A stretch of 64,000 bases of DNA from Lachnospiraceae bacterium. Lineage in GTDB: Bacteria > Bacillota > Clostridia > Lachnospirales > Lachnospiraceae. The number at the start of each line of letters is the position of its first letter. The first letter of the stretch is position 1. This document shows positions 42,872 through 47,064 of this stretch, one piece after another. Position numbers and translations under genes: made by a program. Location of the stretch: positions 93,757 through 157,756 of the forward strand of contig JAAWEK010000013.1 in NCBI GenBank assembly GCA_022794265.1, in the 5' to 3' direction. The notes below the pieces were generated by a model, which was not told where the DNA came from, made no database searches, and worked only from the letters and a program-made list of their open reading frames with translations.

Positions 42872-42903
42872 TTTTTAAAATTCATAATATCATACAAAAG
42901 AAA

Positions 42904-42945
42904 ATACCGTATTCCTCTTATTTTGTAGAGGGGTACGGTATTTGT
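42904..42945 (+). terminator. Terminator after tuf
   Basis: ATACCGTATTCCTCT (42904-42918) pairs with AGAGGGGTACGGTAT (about 42927-42941) with two wobble or mismatch positions. The T tract is short and mixed (TTTGTATAT). Confidence 0.7.
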
Positions 42946-42996
42946 ATATATAAATTTGTTGAAAAAGAAAAAATAATATACCATTTTAATAATTTG

Positions 42997-43005
42997 TGAT
43001 ATAAT
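42997..43005 (+). promoter_or_regulatory. Extended -10 promoter of the RelA/SpoT-domain operon
   Basis: TGATATAAT (42997-43005) is an extended -10 without a clear -35. It lies 45 nt before the GTG start. A 12-codon out-of-frame mini-ORF (ATG 43022) overlaps the start and could act as a translational leader. Confidence 0.45.
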
Positions 43006-43049
43006 GTAAAAAACAAAGACTATGGGGAAAGCGAGTAACAAAGAGTATT

Positions 43050-43985
43050 GTGAAAGATAAAAACACTTTTTTGGAAATTCACAAGATAAAGGCGAAGTTG
43101 GAAAGAGTCGAGAGGGATTATCCGCAAATATGGAGTAGGCTTTGCCGGATTTATGATGATTTTGAATATATCGCCAATAACACAGAAGATGATAAAAGAA
43201 AAAAACTGACAGAATATCAAAGTTTAGTTTTAAAAGAGTTTGACAATATATCCTTTGTTTATAGAGTATGTTCACGAATTAAGGAGCCGGACAGCCTGAT
43301 TGTAAAGATTGTTAATAAAATATATGAAGGAAAAGAAATTTATACCACAATCGATGAAACAAATTATTATCAAATAGTTACAGATTTAATTGGAATCAGA
43401 ATAATACATAAATTTGTCGGTGAATGGGAGCAAATAAATGAATTGATATATGAAAAGTTTTATAAGGGTGACGAATATTTTATTGAGGATTATAATAGAG
43501 AATATTCGTGTAACAGAAAGCTCTCTTTTTTAATAGAGTGTCCCGAGATACATTATCCTTTAAATGGTAGATTGGATTTATATCAGGAGACAGAAAAACG
43601 TCTTAATATTAAATTTAAATATACGCCGAATAATAGAAATTACAGAGGAGTTCATTATTTGGTCAATTATTATGGTATATATGTTGAAATACAAGTCAGA
43701 ACGTTAAGTGATGAATTATGGGGAGAAGTTAATCATGATTTTGTTTATAAGATGAAAAGAACGGAAAAGAAGGACAAGCTGACAGCCGCTTCTGATTTAT
43801 TAAGGACAATATTACTGGCCGGAGATGCTGTTTGTATGTATATGAAGGAACATAATGATGACAATAAAGACAAAGCAGAAGAATATTTGACGGAAACACG
43901 GGATATAATTAAAAAAGCGGATCAAATGCTATTAGGGATGGATGTATGCAAAGGAGATGACGACTATGGAATATCAGGCAAGTAA
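43050..43985 (+). CDS. RelA/SpoT-domain nucleotidyltransferase (toxSAS-like)
   Basis: A 311-residue single-domain RelA/SpoT synthetase homologue without hydrolase, TGS or ACT domains. The synthetase motifs look intact: RIKEPDSL (76-83), DLIGIRII (112-119), YRGVHY (198-203), EIQVRT (213-218) and ELWGEVNHD (222-230). Members make alarmones or, in toxSAS toxins, pyrophosphorylate ATP or tRNA 3' ends. The length exceeds the small housekeeping synthetases RelP/RelQ, and the gene overlaps two small unknown genes, so a toxin is plausible. The start is GTG 43050, the only in-frame start near AAAGAG. Confidence 0.8.
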   Translation: MKDKNTFLEIHKIKAKLERVERDYPQIWSRLCRIYDDFEYIANNTEDDKRKKLTEYQSLVLKEFDNISFVYRVCSRIKEPDSLIVKIVNKIYEGKEIYTTIDETNYYQIVTDLIGIRIIHKFVGEWEQINELIYEKFYKGDEYFIEDYNREYSCNRKLSFLIECPEIHYPLNGRLDLYQETEKRLNIKFKYTPNNRNYRGVHYLVNYYGIYVEIQVRTLSDELWGEVNHDFVYKMKRTEKKDKLTAASDLLRTILLAGDAVCMYMKEHNDDNKDKAEEYLTETRDIIKKADQMLLGMDVCKGDDDYGISGK

Positions 43986-44184
43986 AAAAGGGATGGAATT
44001 AGGTAGAAATTTAGTAAATTCATTAAAACGGGGAGAGATTCGTGAGGCGGTCCGGCCGAATTCTGCTGAGAACTATACAGGTTCACCGGAAGAAATGGAT
44101 TTTCTGCAATATATTGCTTTTTTGAAGTCGTATACTTACAAAGATTTATTTGATAATGTGGAGGTAGAATATGGACGATTTTAA
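43966..44184 (+). CDS. Small hypothetical protein, candidate antitoxin 1
   Basis: A 72-residue protein starting at ATG 43966 (AAGGAG about 12 nt upstream, inside the preceding gene). It overlaps the RelA/SpoT gene by 20 nt and the next gene by 14 nt. It is charged and soluble (MELGRNLVNSLKRGEIREAVRPN, then an acidic, aromatic end). No family is recognised. Tight coupling to a RelA/SpoT-domain gene is what is seen for toxSAS antitoxins, but that role is inferred from position only. Confidence 0.6.
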   Translation: MEYQASKKGMELGRNLVNSLKRGEIREAVRPNSAENYTGSPEEMDFLQYIAFLKSYTYKDLFDNVEVEYGRF

Positions 44185-44746
44185 AAAGGTTAATATTTTG
44201 AAATTGTTTGATGGTGAAAAATATGATTATTTACTAGAAGATTTTGGAGAAAAAAAGATTACCAGTCGTTATGCATACCTGTATGATTATTTAAATAGTT
44301 TTATATCAAATAATCATATAGAAGACAAAGTTTATATTTCGGTTTCAATACTGGAACAGGTCATTGTTGATTACTTTGTAGATGTATACCGTTTGAAAAA
44401 GTTTCATCATATTACTAATATAAATGAGAATAAAATACATGCATATACTGCTTATTGGTTAGCAGTAGAAAAAGTCCTGCAGATTAAACAGGATTGCAGT
44501 GATGATAAACAGATGACTGCTGTTAATGAATGGATGGTATCTTCTTATCTGATTAGTTATTTATTTAAAGAAAAGGGTAAGAGTACAGTTTTAAATCCTA
44601 AAAACAAGAATATGATAGAAGAGTTAAAGAGCAATCTGTTATATTCCTTAAGATATCGGCAAGTAAATCCAAATATGCTGGAAACAATAATTGTGGCTTT
44701 TAAAGCAGGAATGAGCTGGCAGTATTCAATTGATTATGAAGAATAA
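44171..44746 (+). CDS. Hypothetical protein, candidate antitoxin 2
   Basis: A 191-residue soluble, helix-rich, tyrosine-rich protein (RYAYLYDYLNSFISNNH, ILEQVIVDYFVDVYRLKKFHH). ATG 44171 follows GAGG and overlaps the preceding gene by 14 nt, so the three genes form one operon closed by the terminator at 44789. I recognise no domain. It could be a second antitoxin or a substrate-handling partner of the RelA/SpoT protein. Confidence 0.6.
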   Translation: MDDFKKVNILKLFDGEKYDYLLEDFGEKKITSRYAYLYDYLNSFISNNHIEDKVYISVSILEQVIVDYFVDVYRLKKFHHITNINENKIHAYTAYWLAVEKVLQIKQDCSDDKQMTAVNEWMVSSYLISYLFKEKGKSTVLNPKNKNMIEELKSNLLYSLRYRQVNPNMLETIIVAFKAGMSWQYSIDYEE

Positions 44747-44788
44747 GCATTTTATCTAATAGATTAATAGGTTAGCAAAGGTAATAAG

Positions 44789-44821
44789 AACAGTGTACAT
44801 TTATTATGTATGCTGTTTTTG
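44789..44821 (+). terminator. Terminator of the RelA/SpoT operon
   Basis: AACAGTGTACAT (44789-44800) pairs with ATGTATGCTGTT (44806-44817) through ten Watson-Crick and two wobble pairs, followed by a T run. Confidence 0.8.
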
Positions 44822-44850
44822 TTGTAAATAAAGAACAAAAAGAGTATAAT
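44822..44850 (+). promoter_or_regulatory. Promoter of the gene at 44889
   Basis: TTGTAA (44822-44827), a 17-nt spacer, then TATAAT (44845-44850). Confidence 0.6.
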
Positions 44851-44888
44851 CAAACTATTAAGTCTGAAGTTTTTGTGGAGGTATTAAA

Positions 44889-45215
44889 ATGGAAGGCAGA
44901 ATCCTTGGTTTTATTCTATGGTGTGTTTTCAGCATTATGTTCCTGGGTTTGGCAGCATTTTCATGGTTTTCAAAGAATCCGGTGGGATTTTGGGCGAATG
45001 CAGATGTATGTGAAGTCCGGGATGTAAAAGAATATAATCATGCGTTATCCCGGCTGTTTGGTATATTTGGTATTGTTACGATAGTCTTGGGAATTCCTCT
45101 GCTTGCAGGACAAAATTCTGCCTGGGTACTACTCTCTGTTGCTGGAGTCATGATAGAAAGTATTATTGCTATGGCGGTTTATACTCTTGTAATCGAAAAA
45201 AAATATAAAAAATAA
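44889..45215 (+). CDS. Small membrane protein (DUF3784-like)
   Basis: A 108-residue protein with three membrane segments (ILGFILWCVFSIMFLGLAAFSW, LFGIFGIVTIVLGIPLLAG, VLLSVAGVMIESIIAMAVYTLV). The loop NPVGFWANADVCEVRDVKEYNHALSRL matches small DUF3784-type proteins common in Clostridia, whose function is unknown. GTGGAGG precedes ATG 44889. It has its own promoter. Confidence 0.7.
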   Translation: MEGRILGFILWCVFSIMFLGLAAFSWFSKNPVGFWANADVCEVRDVKEYNHALSRLFGIFGIVTIVLGIPLLAGQNSAWVLLSVAGVMIESIIAMAVYTLVIEKKYKK

Positions 45216-45272
45216 AAGAAAATGCCGTTATGTATTTGAGAGATATAGAATCTTAAAAAGGTGATATTGGAA

Positions 45273-45725
45273 ATGCAGAAAGAGCTTGAACAGAAAATAG
45301 ATAATATTAAATATGATATTGAAACTCTGGAAATGGAAAAAATCGGTTTAATAAGAAGATTACGTTTTTTAAAGGAAAAGCTTATTATTAATTTTATAAT
45401 TTTAATACTGATTTTTTTGTTTTTAATATTTACTATAGGGTATGAACCTTATGAACCCTATTCAATTGCGTTTACTACGGTATTGAAACCCTTATATTTT
45501 TTGTTGACAGGGGTATATATATTTTTTTTGATTCTGAAACCGATTTGGGAAATTTATTTAAATTGTAATCTTGAGGCTGGAAGAAAAGCTGCGGTAAAAT
45601 ATGGTGTCAGGTCTATAAGTGAGAATATAGAGATGTGTGATACTAAAATTTCGGCGTTGAATAGTATTCTTAGAGATTATGAAGAATCAATAATGAATGT
45701 GGATAGTATGGTCAAAGATGAATAA
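45273..45725 (+). CDS. Hypothetical coiled-coil membrane protein
   Basis: About 150 residues. An N-terminal heptad-like coiled coil (ELEQKIDNIKYDIETLEMEK) is followed by two membrane segments (about 33-55 and 75-95) and a second charged helical region (NIEMCDTKISALNSILRDYEESI). I chose ATG 45273, about 10 nt after AAGGTG; GTG 45261 overlaps that site. No family is recognised. It may share a transcript with the preceding small membrane protein. Confidence 0.6.
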   Translation: MQKELEQKIDNIKYDIETLEMEKIGLIRRLRFLKEKLIINFIILILIFLFLIFTIGYEPYEPYSIAFTTVLKPLYFLLTGVYIFFLILKPIWEIYLNCNLEAGRKAAVKYGVRSISENIEMCDTKISALNSILRDYEESIMNVDSMVKDE

Positions 45726-45823
45726 TAAATTAAAAGAAAAAAAGTAGCTGCCAAAATTGTTATTGTTGGGTATTGATAATGGAAAAAAAATATATATAGC
45801 CTAAATGAATATTCTGGAAGAAA

Positions 45824-45876
45824 GAGCTGTTGCGAAAGCAGGATATAATCTGCTTTTGCAACAGCTCAAATTTTTT
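45824..45876 (+). terminator. Long-stem rho-independent terminator
   Basis: An 18-bp stem (45824-45841 with 45850-45867, one wobble) with loop GATATAAT, then AAA and six Ts. It lies about 100 nt after the nearest upstream stop codon. Confidence 0.9.
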
Positions 45877-45935
45877 GAAGACAGGCAGCTTGCAGTAAGA
45901 TATAAATATATAATTTAAAGTACAATACAATTAAC

Positions 45936-45965
45936 TTGGCATAAAGATTTTAAGAGTGTTATAAT
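45936..45965 (+). promoter_or_regulatory. Promoter of the DUF1266-DUF2185 gene
   Basis: TTGGCA (45936-45941), an 18-nt spacer, then TATAAT (45960-45965), about 60 nt before the start codon at 46027. Confidence 0.65.
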
Positions 45966-46026
45966 GAGTATTAATTAGAATTAAAAAGTAAGCTGCTGAA
46001 AGGAATTAAAGAAAGAGAGGCAAATT

Positions 46027-47049
46027 ATGAAGAATATCGTTAAAACAATTGCTGATTTTAAAACAGAGATTGAACAGAGACAGAATCATTCTGATACAGA
46101 GCAAACGGACAGAGAAAGATTTACGCTGCTGTTGAGTGGAATTTCCAGTTGCAGAATGATGCCCGGAATACCAGAACACATGGGATATGAAGTGTTGTAT
46201 CACTGCGACAGTCCCCAGTCAAAAGAACTGGCTTTGGATCATATGAAGCGGCTATTTGGAATTGGGGATAAGGAAACACTTTTGAAGTTCTGTTATGGGG
46301 AATATTCCGGAAGCAGAGAATATCAACAGTTTATGACCTTTTGGAGTAAAGCACCCCTGTTTGATTTAAAAGAATTAACACCGGATGGGAAAGAAGGGTT
46401 TGAAAAATGCAAACGCCTGGCAGAACATTTTTACCCCCTTGTAAAAGAAAAGGGATTTTATGGGTGGGATATAAATGAAAAGATTGGTCTTTGCAGAAAA
46501 GCGGTTGCATGTGACATTATTTCAGAAGAAGAATTCTGGCAGATTACGGATGAATGGGTGCGGCAGGCACAGGTATTTTATCATTCTTTTGAAGAATATG
46601 CCGTAAGCTGTTTGTGCGGCGCTGTATATTATATGGGACGTTATGATTCTGATGTCGGCGGTTTTCTGGATATCAATCTGAAAATCGTAAGACATCTGCT
46701 GGAAGAAGGAGCATGGCGGAGTTTTCAATGGTATACGCCGAAAGAAAGGGAATGGGCAGATTTATTAGGCGGCAGTAATCCTGGTTGTCTGATAACGAAG
46801 AAAGCCCTGGAACAGAAGAATATTGCTTATATGTATAGGGAAGAGCCGGAAGGGGATGTTCCTGACAGCGGTTGGAGATTTTTTGTGGGAGATGAATCGG
46901 ATGAATATGTAAACAATGCGGATAATATCAGTGTCTGCGGATTAAATACCATTTGCAATATTCAGCCGGATATTTTAGCGTTTATTTATGCAGAGGCAGG
47001 AAGGAAATTCGGCAGGGATGAGACCGGATGGACGGAAGAATTTATTTGA
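46027..47049 (+). CDS. DUF1266-DUF2185 fusion protein
   Basis: A 340-residue soluble protein. Residues about 55-235 resemble DUF1266 (HMKRLFGIGDKETLLKF, GWDINEKIGLCRKAVACDIISEEEFW, YYMGRYDSDVGGF). Residues about 255-335 resemble DUF2185, an Imm33-type immunity fold (GCLITKKALEQKNIAYMYREEP, GWRFFVGDESDEYVNNADNISVCGLNTI). DUF2185 is often found near polymorphic toxins as an immunity or immunity-like domain. The fusion is known in Firmicutes, but its role is not. It precedes an aldo/keto reductase by 15 nt. Confidence 0.8.
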   Translation: MKNIVKTIADFKTEIEQRQNHSDTEQTDRERFTLLLSGISSCRMMPGIPEHMGYEVLYHCDSPQSKELALDHMKRLFGIGDKETLLKFCYGEYSGSREYQQFMTFWSKAPLFDLKELTPDGKEGFEKCKRLAEHFYPLVKEKGFYGWDINEKIGLCRKAVACDIISEEEFWQITDEWVRQAQVFYHSFEEYAVSCLCGAVYYMGRYDSDVGGFLDINLKIVRHLLEEGAWRSFQWYTPKEREWADLLGGSNPGCLITKKALEQKNIAYMYREEPEGDVPDSGWRFFVGDESDEYVNNADNISVCGLNTICNIQPDILAFIYAEAGRKFGRDETGWTEEFI

Positions 47050-47064
47050 CAGGAGGTAAGAAAT

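Follow-up and report, generated by a model that had tools for sequence, protein, structure and literature searches.

What does a small RelA/SpoT homologue (RSH) do when it is encoded in one unit with two proteins that no library names? The question is raised by an operon in the 64,000-nucleotide stretch analysed here (the window), which is part of contig C7 of a 2.88-Mb genome. The operon sits downstream of rpsL, rpsG, fusA and tuf (gene names read by eye) and is comprised of three genes on the forward strand. The first, RSH (43050..43985, GTG start), encodes a predicted single-domain RelA/SpoT-type pyrophosphokinase of 311 residues. It is followed by MID (43966..44184), which was aligned over 17 loci and encodes 72 residues from the ATG at 43966, or 80 residues in an alternative reading that starts at 43942, and by THIRD (44171..44746), which encodes 191 residues. 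RSH and MID overlap by 20 bases, and MID and THIRD by 14. A candidate extended -10 box, TGATATAAT, was read from the sequence upstream of RSH (42997..43005, forward strand), where the consensus scan has no entry. Downstream of THIRD, an intrinsic terminator hairpin of 17 pairs followed by U-rich sequence (44784..44822, forward strand) folds at -17.6 kcal/mol. The simple terminator scan lists none at the operon end, and the hairpin was shown by separate folding against 200 shuffles, none of which equals it (z -5.4). Coordinates, overlaps and hairpin together bear out the sequence-only reading, which had described three overlapping genes in one operon closed by a terminator.

The RSH protein matches Pfam RelA_SpoT with an E-value of 9.2e-13 (48.9 bits, cut-off 27). 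Among the 17 operon RSHs, the invariant or nearly invariant columns are R76, K78, K86, D112, G115, R117, Y198, E213, Q215 and R217, and these columns delimit a catalytic core from R76-x-K78 to E213-x-Q-x-R-T218 (43275..43703, forward strand). By the Pfam match and the conserved columns, the window RSH contains a SYNTH domain with its donor-site and catalytic residues present, so the earlier description of a single-domain RSH with intact motifs holds. The position matching FaRel2 R77 is occupied by Asn, as mapped by residue spacing and the residue list excerpted from PMC11782079 rather than by structure.

We then compared this protein with the housekeeping RelP/RelQ enzymes, outside which it had been placed. 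The NCBIfam RelQ model gives 27.9 bits for the window RSH, 24.9 for L075, 23.6 for L037 and 39.4 for CapRel-SJ46, whereas two further short synthetases encoded in this genome score 290 and 186 bits; the cut-off of the model, 320, is reached by none. Besides the operon RSH, the genome encodes two RelQ-like proteins and one long protein of the RSH type. A profile of the RSH family gives 288-424 bits on the 17 operon RSHs, which are its training set, 304 on L037-L039, 179 on L040 and 208-218 on four plasmid-collection proteins. The same profile gives 52 and 41 bits on the two short synthetases of the genome, 10 on its long RSH and 2.3 on CapRel-SJ46. The RSH tree was built from 54 of 95 collected rows; four non-RSH or unusable rows and the genome's own long RSH were dropped, 55 viral-contig rows were thinned to 19, and RelQ-like proteins and CapRel-SJ46 were chosen by us as the outgroup. 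In this tree L037-L039 cluster with the operon RSHs at moderate support (74/94), and a 98/89 branch splits the cluster from the RelQ-like proteins and CapRel-SJ46, with the placement of CapRel-SJ46 made unsure by its very long end branch (3.92). The window RSH, on a long branch itself (2.06), groups with L031 and L074 (99/98). Membership of the RelP/RelQ family was rejected on the 27.9 bits and the separate clade, although the modelled fold resembles these enzymes, and by family the earlier placement is therefore upheld.

The structure model of RSH (34 rows, mean pLDDT 77.6) is nearest to SAS1/SAS2, that is RelP/RelQ, with Z to 12.7 and 24% identity over 140 residues. Long Rel, SaEAS and CapRel (10.1), Tas1 (8.3) and FaRel2 (6.4) follow, and chains of CapRel, FaRel2 and Tas1 are absent from the PDB profile matches up to E 10. 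Since the nearest folds are SAS1/SAS2, the model leans toward guanosine-type enzymes. The structure search that the sequence-only reading had called for thus ranks the housekeeping folds ahead of the toxSAS ones, and the earlier interpretation as a whole is partly supported. Like FaRel2-ATfaRel2, CapRel, PhRel2-PanA and FaRel with two antitoxins, the operon encodes a small RSH of one domain, its catalytic residues intact, next to conserved small partners. Unlike them, its RSH lies across a supported branch from CapRel-SJ46, its model is closest to RelP/RelQ, and its partners match no Panacea, hydrolase or other Pfam family, so the label is not established. This comparison covered the sequences of CapRel-SJ46, FaRel2 and Tas1. 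The RelP/RelQ enzymes, which share the nearest solved fold, differ from the window RSH in RelQ-model score, in clade, and in its 311 residues and its partners.

The association of the three genes is not confined to the window. The order RSH-MID-THIRD was found at 15 loci, the window and 14 further ones, among which the RSH of L033 is cut by the contig end and that of L078 has an internal stop. At L082 and L083 the order is MID-RSH-THIRD, L080 carries a decayed RSH copy, and at L032 a MID motif seen by eye, which the MID profile misses, is fused to THIRD. The gap from MID to THIRD is negative at 14 of 15 loci, mostly with the most upstream start taken. The recurrence of the three genes together in other genomes indicates an association beyond chance and agrees with the earlier claim of a conserved unit with two partners. 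That they are chance neighbours sharing a variable site after tuf, with no common function, is hardly credible: the site does differ between congeneric genomes, but the same three genes recur overlapping in varied surroundings, which contradicts this explanation. Library searches of open-licence papers listed no description of the operon.

To be specific about distribution, of 144 related genomes, the own genome included, 16 are positive in an RSH search with an E threshold of 1e-3. Ten have E-values of 2.5e-9 or lower; the remaining six are weak, and the three of them tested (L043, L045 and L047) look RelQ-like. THIRD was found in 8 of the 144. With the THIRD profile, the family sample yields 21 positive genomes among 397, the order sample 15 among 325, the class sample 5 among 391 and the phylum sample 2 among 329. 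These samples overlap and each includes the own genome, and the weakest matches are near E 1e-4. The census comprises 39 THIRD loci, fragments included, a weak match in G204 (L070) and repeat places being left out. At 20 of the 39 there is a same-strand RSH no more than 1.5 kb away, which at L041 is a fragment. MID is detected by its profile at 21 of the 39, including the 17 training loci; of the four that remain, two give weak scores, L080 with 13.2 bits and L176 with 7.4 bits.

Neither partner belongs to a named family. MID matches none above chance in Pfam, NCBIfam, PADLOC or PHROG, and for THIRD no Pfam or NCBIfam family passes the cut-off and PADLOC and PHROGs offer no convincing match, which accords with the earlier remark that both were unrecognised. 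For the known antitoxin domains Panacea and hydrolase, seven MID and seven THIRD rows gave no Pfam match above cut-off, and the identification of THIRD as a DUF4065 Panacea antitoxin was rejected on this ground. No YXXY motif was seen by eye in the window MID; the pZFD/PAD1 class itself is recognised by fold. THIRD has 12 invariant residues in 20 rows, including D67, D71, R74, K88, K101, N119, E120, R163 and E171, and fewer once L175-L178 or distant rows join the alignment. Its AlphaFold2 model, made from two rows, is all helical with low confidence (mean pLDDT 51).

The three genes have diverged together. In L075/L076, the closest pair and the sole one close enough (dS is saturated in two other pairs tried), dN/dS is 0.024 for RSH, 0.21 for MID and 0.071 for THIRD, and all three are under purifying selection. 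Over the 15 loci with full rows of all three proteins (L032, L033, L078 and L080 left out), the Mantel r is 0.757 for RSH-THIRD, 0.557 for RSH-MID and 0.688 for MID-THIRD, equalled in 0 of 5000 permutations each. This distance correlation reflects joint inheritance, not binding; shared ancestry alone could yield it, and neither it nor the tail lengths given below indicate the direction of control.

The C-terminal tail of RSH also bears on the partners. In the window it extends 93 residues past the ExQxRT motif (43704..43982, forward strand), and it is 85-113 residues in 17 of 17 operon RSHs. It is 57-76 residues in six of six comparison proteins, namely L037-L040 and the Fusobacterium and Ilyobacter proteins (L191/L192). 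In none of the six does the surrounding sequence examined contain MID or THIRD. The last two score 214 and 218 bits with the RSH profile and are presumably of the fpRel type, for which Atkinson 2011, in the part concerned, names Fusobacteria and Firmicutes (PMC3153485). Among the members of the operon clade, the short-tailed RSHs are the partnerless ones, and the extra stretch may be a partner docking site. The Geobacillus and Paracoccus RSHs have tails of 154 and 198 residues without partners; therefore a long tail alone is no sign of partners. Tails of 159-227 residues occur in four viral-contig RSHs examined. Absence of the partners from relatives that keep RSH had been named in advance as counting against the proposal, and it applies in part: L037-L039, close relatives in the same clade, have neither MID nor THIRD. 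Their last motif reads EIQGRT or EVQGRT instead of ExQ[VILM]RT, with E, Q and R-T kept and V changed to G, and their nested position in the operon group reads as a single partner loss, as far as the tree goes. The partnerless RSH of L037 (L037:7272-9007) has a four-base overlap with a gene that by eye resembles a WYL-type regulator. Many RSH relatives on viral contigs (L087-L138) are 330-500 residues long and possibly carry fused control domains; L100 matches phrog_2211, whose function is not assigned.

A feature that is novel here is that the MID-THIRD pair is separable from RSH. On a prophage-like IMG/VR contig (L086:5720-6498), MID (19.0 bits) and THIRD occur without RSH and without a recognised effector beside them, and this might be a protective or anti-defence pair. 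It lies upstream of genes read by eye as terminase genes. L177 likewise has MID (14.3 bits) and THIRD without RSH, and L084 has THIRD with a MID candidate too weak for the census. Other loci place THIRD beside membrane proteins. L150:6374-7470 and L151:6391-7499 contain a small gene, in which the profile detects no MID, then THIRD, then a protein of 150 residues that has two hydrophobic segments and matches SLATT weakly, below the Pfam and NCBIfam cut-offs; they are possibly a separate defence-like module. L175:2001-3404 and L176:5685-7065 combine, in one unit, a protein of four hydrophobic segments, a membrane-anchored protein that is MID-like at its end (P 0.0011, probability 20) and THIRD. 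At L178:5017-7443, a 510-residue fusion joins an unnamed 340-residue domain, a MID-like stretch (by eye) and a C-terminal THIRD; the protein encoded next has 270 residues and a membrane segment. The 340-residue domain matches phrog_23933 (function not assigned) and no library names it; we take its motifs to recall those of class III nucleotidyl cyclases.

The L178 arrangement bears on the idea that RSH makes a messenger, THIRD is its receptor or effector and MID an adaptor, as in CBASS or Pycsar, which also draws on the invariant charged residues of THIRD as a possible nucleotide site. We consider this improbable: beside THIRD in L150, L151, L175, L176 and L086 no nucleotide synthetase was recognised, and THIRD has no recognised effector domain. 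A CBASS- or Pycsar-like system of recognised synthase plus recognised effector was accordingly rejected for the window operon, in which no effector domain was recognised. The distant THIRDs (22-68 bits; L179, L182-L186) have no RSH nearby. At L179 and L183-L186 short ORFs precede THIRD, with no effector recognised among the neighbours listed, and L086 has the pair alone, as if MID and THIRD formed a toxin-antitoxin pair of their own, with RSH as an accessory from outside, such as a regulator or protector. This is quite improbable, as those short ORFs are not detectably MID by profile, RSH co-diverges with the pair, and the tail tracks partner presence among close kin.

We favour the reading in which MID-THIRD restrains an RSH growth-arrest effector as a reusable control unit, by analogy with the sequence-unrelated PAD1-Panacea, and give it a probability of roughly 45%. 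RSH would be the effector pyrophosphokinase; when released, it would make a pyrophosphorylated nucleotide or modify tRNA, and growth would stop. MID and THIRD together would restrain it. MID, which is the smallest of the three and diverges fastest, may contact the synthetase, perhaps at the extended C-terminal tail, and THIRD may be a platform that binds MID and carries a trigger-sensing site among the invariant residues listed above. The pair would be modular and coupled to other effectors, membrane proteins among them. Binding of RSH by the partners, negative control, toxicity, product and trigger are what we infer from the operon order and overlaps, the MID-RSH-THIRD loci, the L032 fusion, co-divergence, tail length, MID-THIRD without RSH, the patchy distribution and the Panacea-like range of partners. 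In the parts of the cited papers concerned, ATfaRel2 blocks the ATP site of FaRel2 (PMC11782079), the partners of Panacea include toxSAS, membrane and putative cyclase toxins (PMC8832971), and a small PAD1 neutraliser, which contacts the toxin, sits on the Panacea platform (PMC10440598). Like Panacea (DUF4065, PanA) as the same parts describe it (PMC8832971, PMC10440598), THIRD is found repeatedly next to RSH, to membrane proteins and possibly to cyclase-like ones, accompanied by a small element. It differs in having no Pfam Panacea/DUF4065 match and an all-helical, low-confidence model, and its neutralising role is putative.

In a broader and more tentative form, MID-THIRD would be a second promiscuous control unit of immunity or toxin-antitoxin systems with a PAD1-Panacea-like role. 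The effectors it has captured would be RSH, membrane proteins of the SLATT-like or multi-segment kind and an enzyme resembling a cyclase, and it would be effectorless in at least one prophage, perhaps protecting the lysogen or blocking host modules. Judged from its relatives, the window operon is a real, conserved RSH-module variant with a separable partner pair. If the restraint reading is true, RSH effectors gain a new partner pair and probably a new control mode, and partner swapping is achieved by a unit other than Panacea. One could then ask whether the small MID sets effector specificity with THIRD as common platform or sensor, for which the partnerless short-tailed RSH clade is a natural control.

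Several observations oppose restraint by MID-THIRD: the partnerless L037-L039, the RelP/RelQ-like fold, the plasmid and phage records, the surroundings and two-way loss. THIRD is absent from 72,556 plasmid and 50,697 phage records (tblastn, L031 and L151 queries). RSH relatives were confirmed on 58 viral contigs versus only one of the 50,697 phage records, and host flanks in the viral contigs may explain part of this. Many copies are flanked by housekeeping genes and do not lie in a defence island (by eye, among the loci listed), though integrase- or transposase-like genes are near L033, L034, L078 and L082. Loss runs both ways, with RSH broken and partners intact at L078, and RSH intact and partners absent at L037-L039. 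The nearest folds, the persistence of partnerless relatives and the many chromosomal, housekeeping surroundings would suit a positive sensor, in which MID-THIRD switches on a quiet synthetase of the RelP/RelQ kind in response to a particular stress or phage signal; RSH would then make (p)ppGpp and would not act as a toxin. We regard this as unlikely. The genome already has a long RSH-type and two RelQ-like proteins, THIRD stands beside membrane proteins without a visible synthetase, and the patchy distribution and variable site suit an accessory module better.

Compact overlapping genes, the patchy distribution (21/397) and a variable site are genetic traits of type II toxin-antitoxin systems that the operon shares. 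Specifically, a match of ~90% identity after tuf ends at 42877-42878 in G006, G004 and G005, and the subsequent genes differ in each; G001 and other congeners have too little sequence or no informative match there. The operon follows tuf in L080 and L082 as well. The segment after tuf (42879-47064 of the window) looks like a variable site, with different genes in the three congeneric genomes. Downstream of the operon, it also encodes an immunity-type protein of 340 residues (46027-47049) with DUF1266 and Imm33 domains (Pfam E 2.2e-17 and 1.1e-25).
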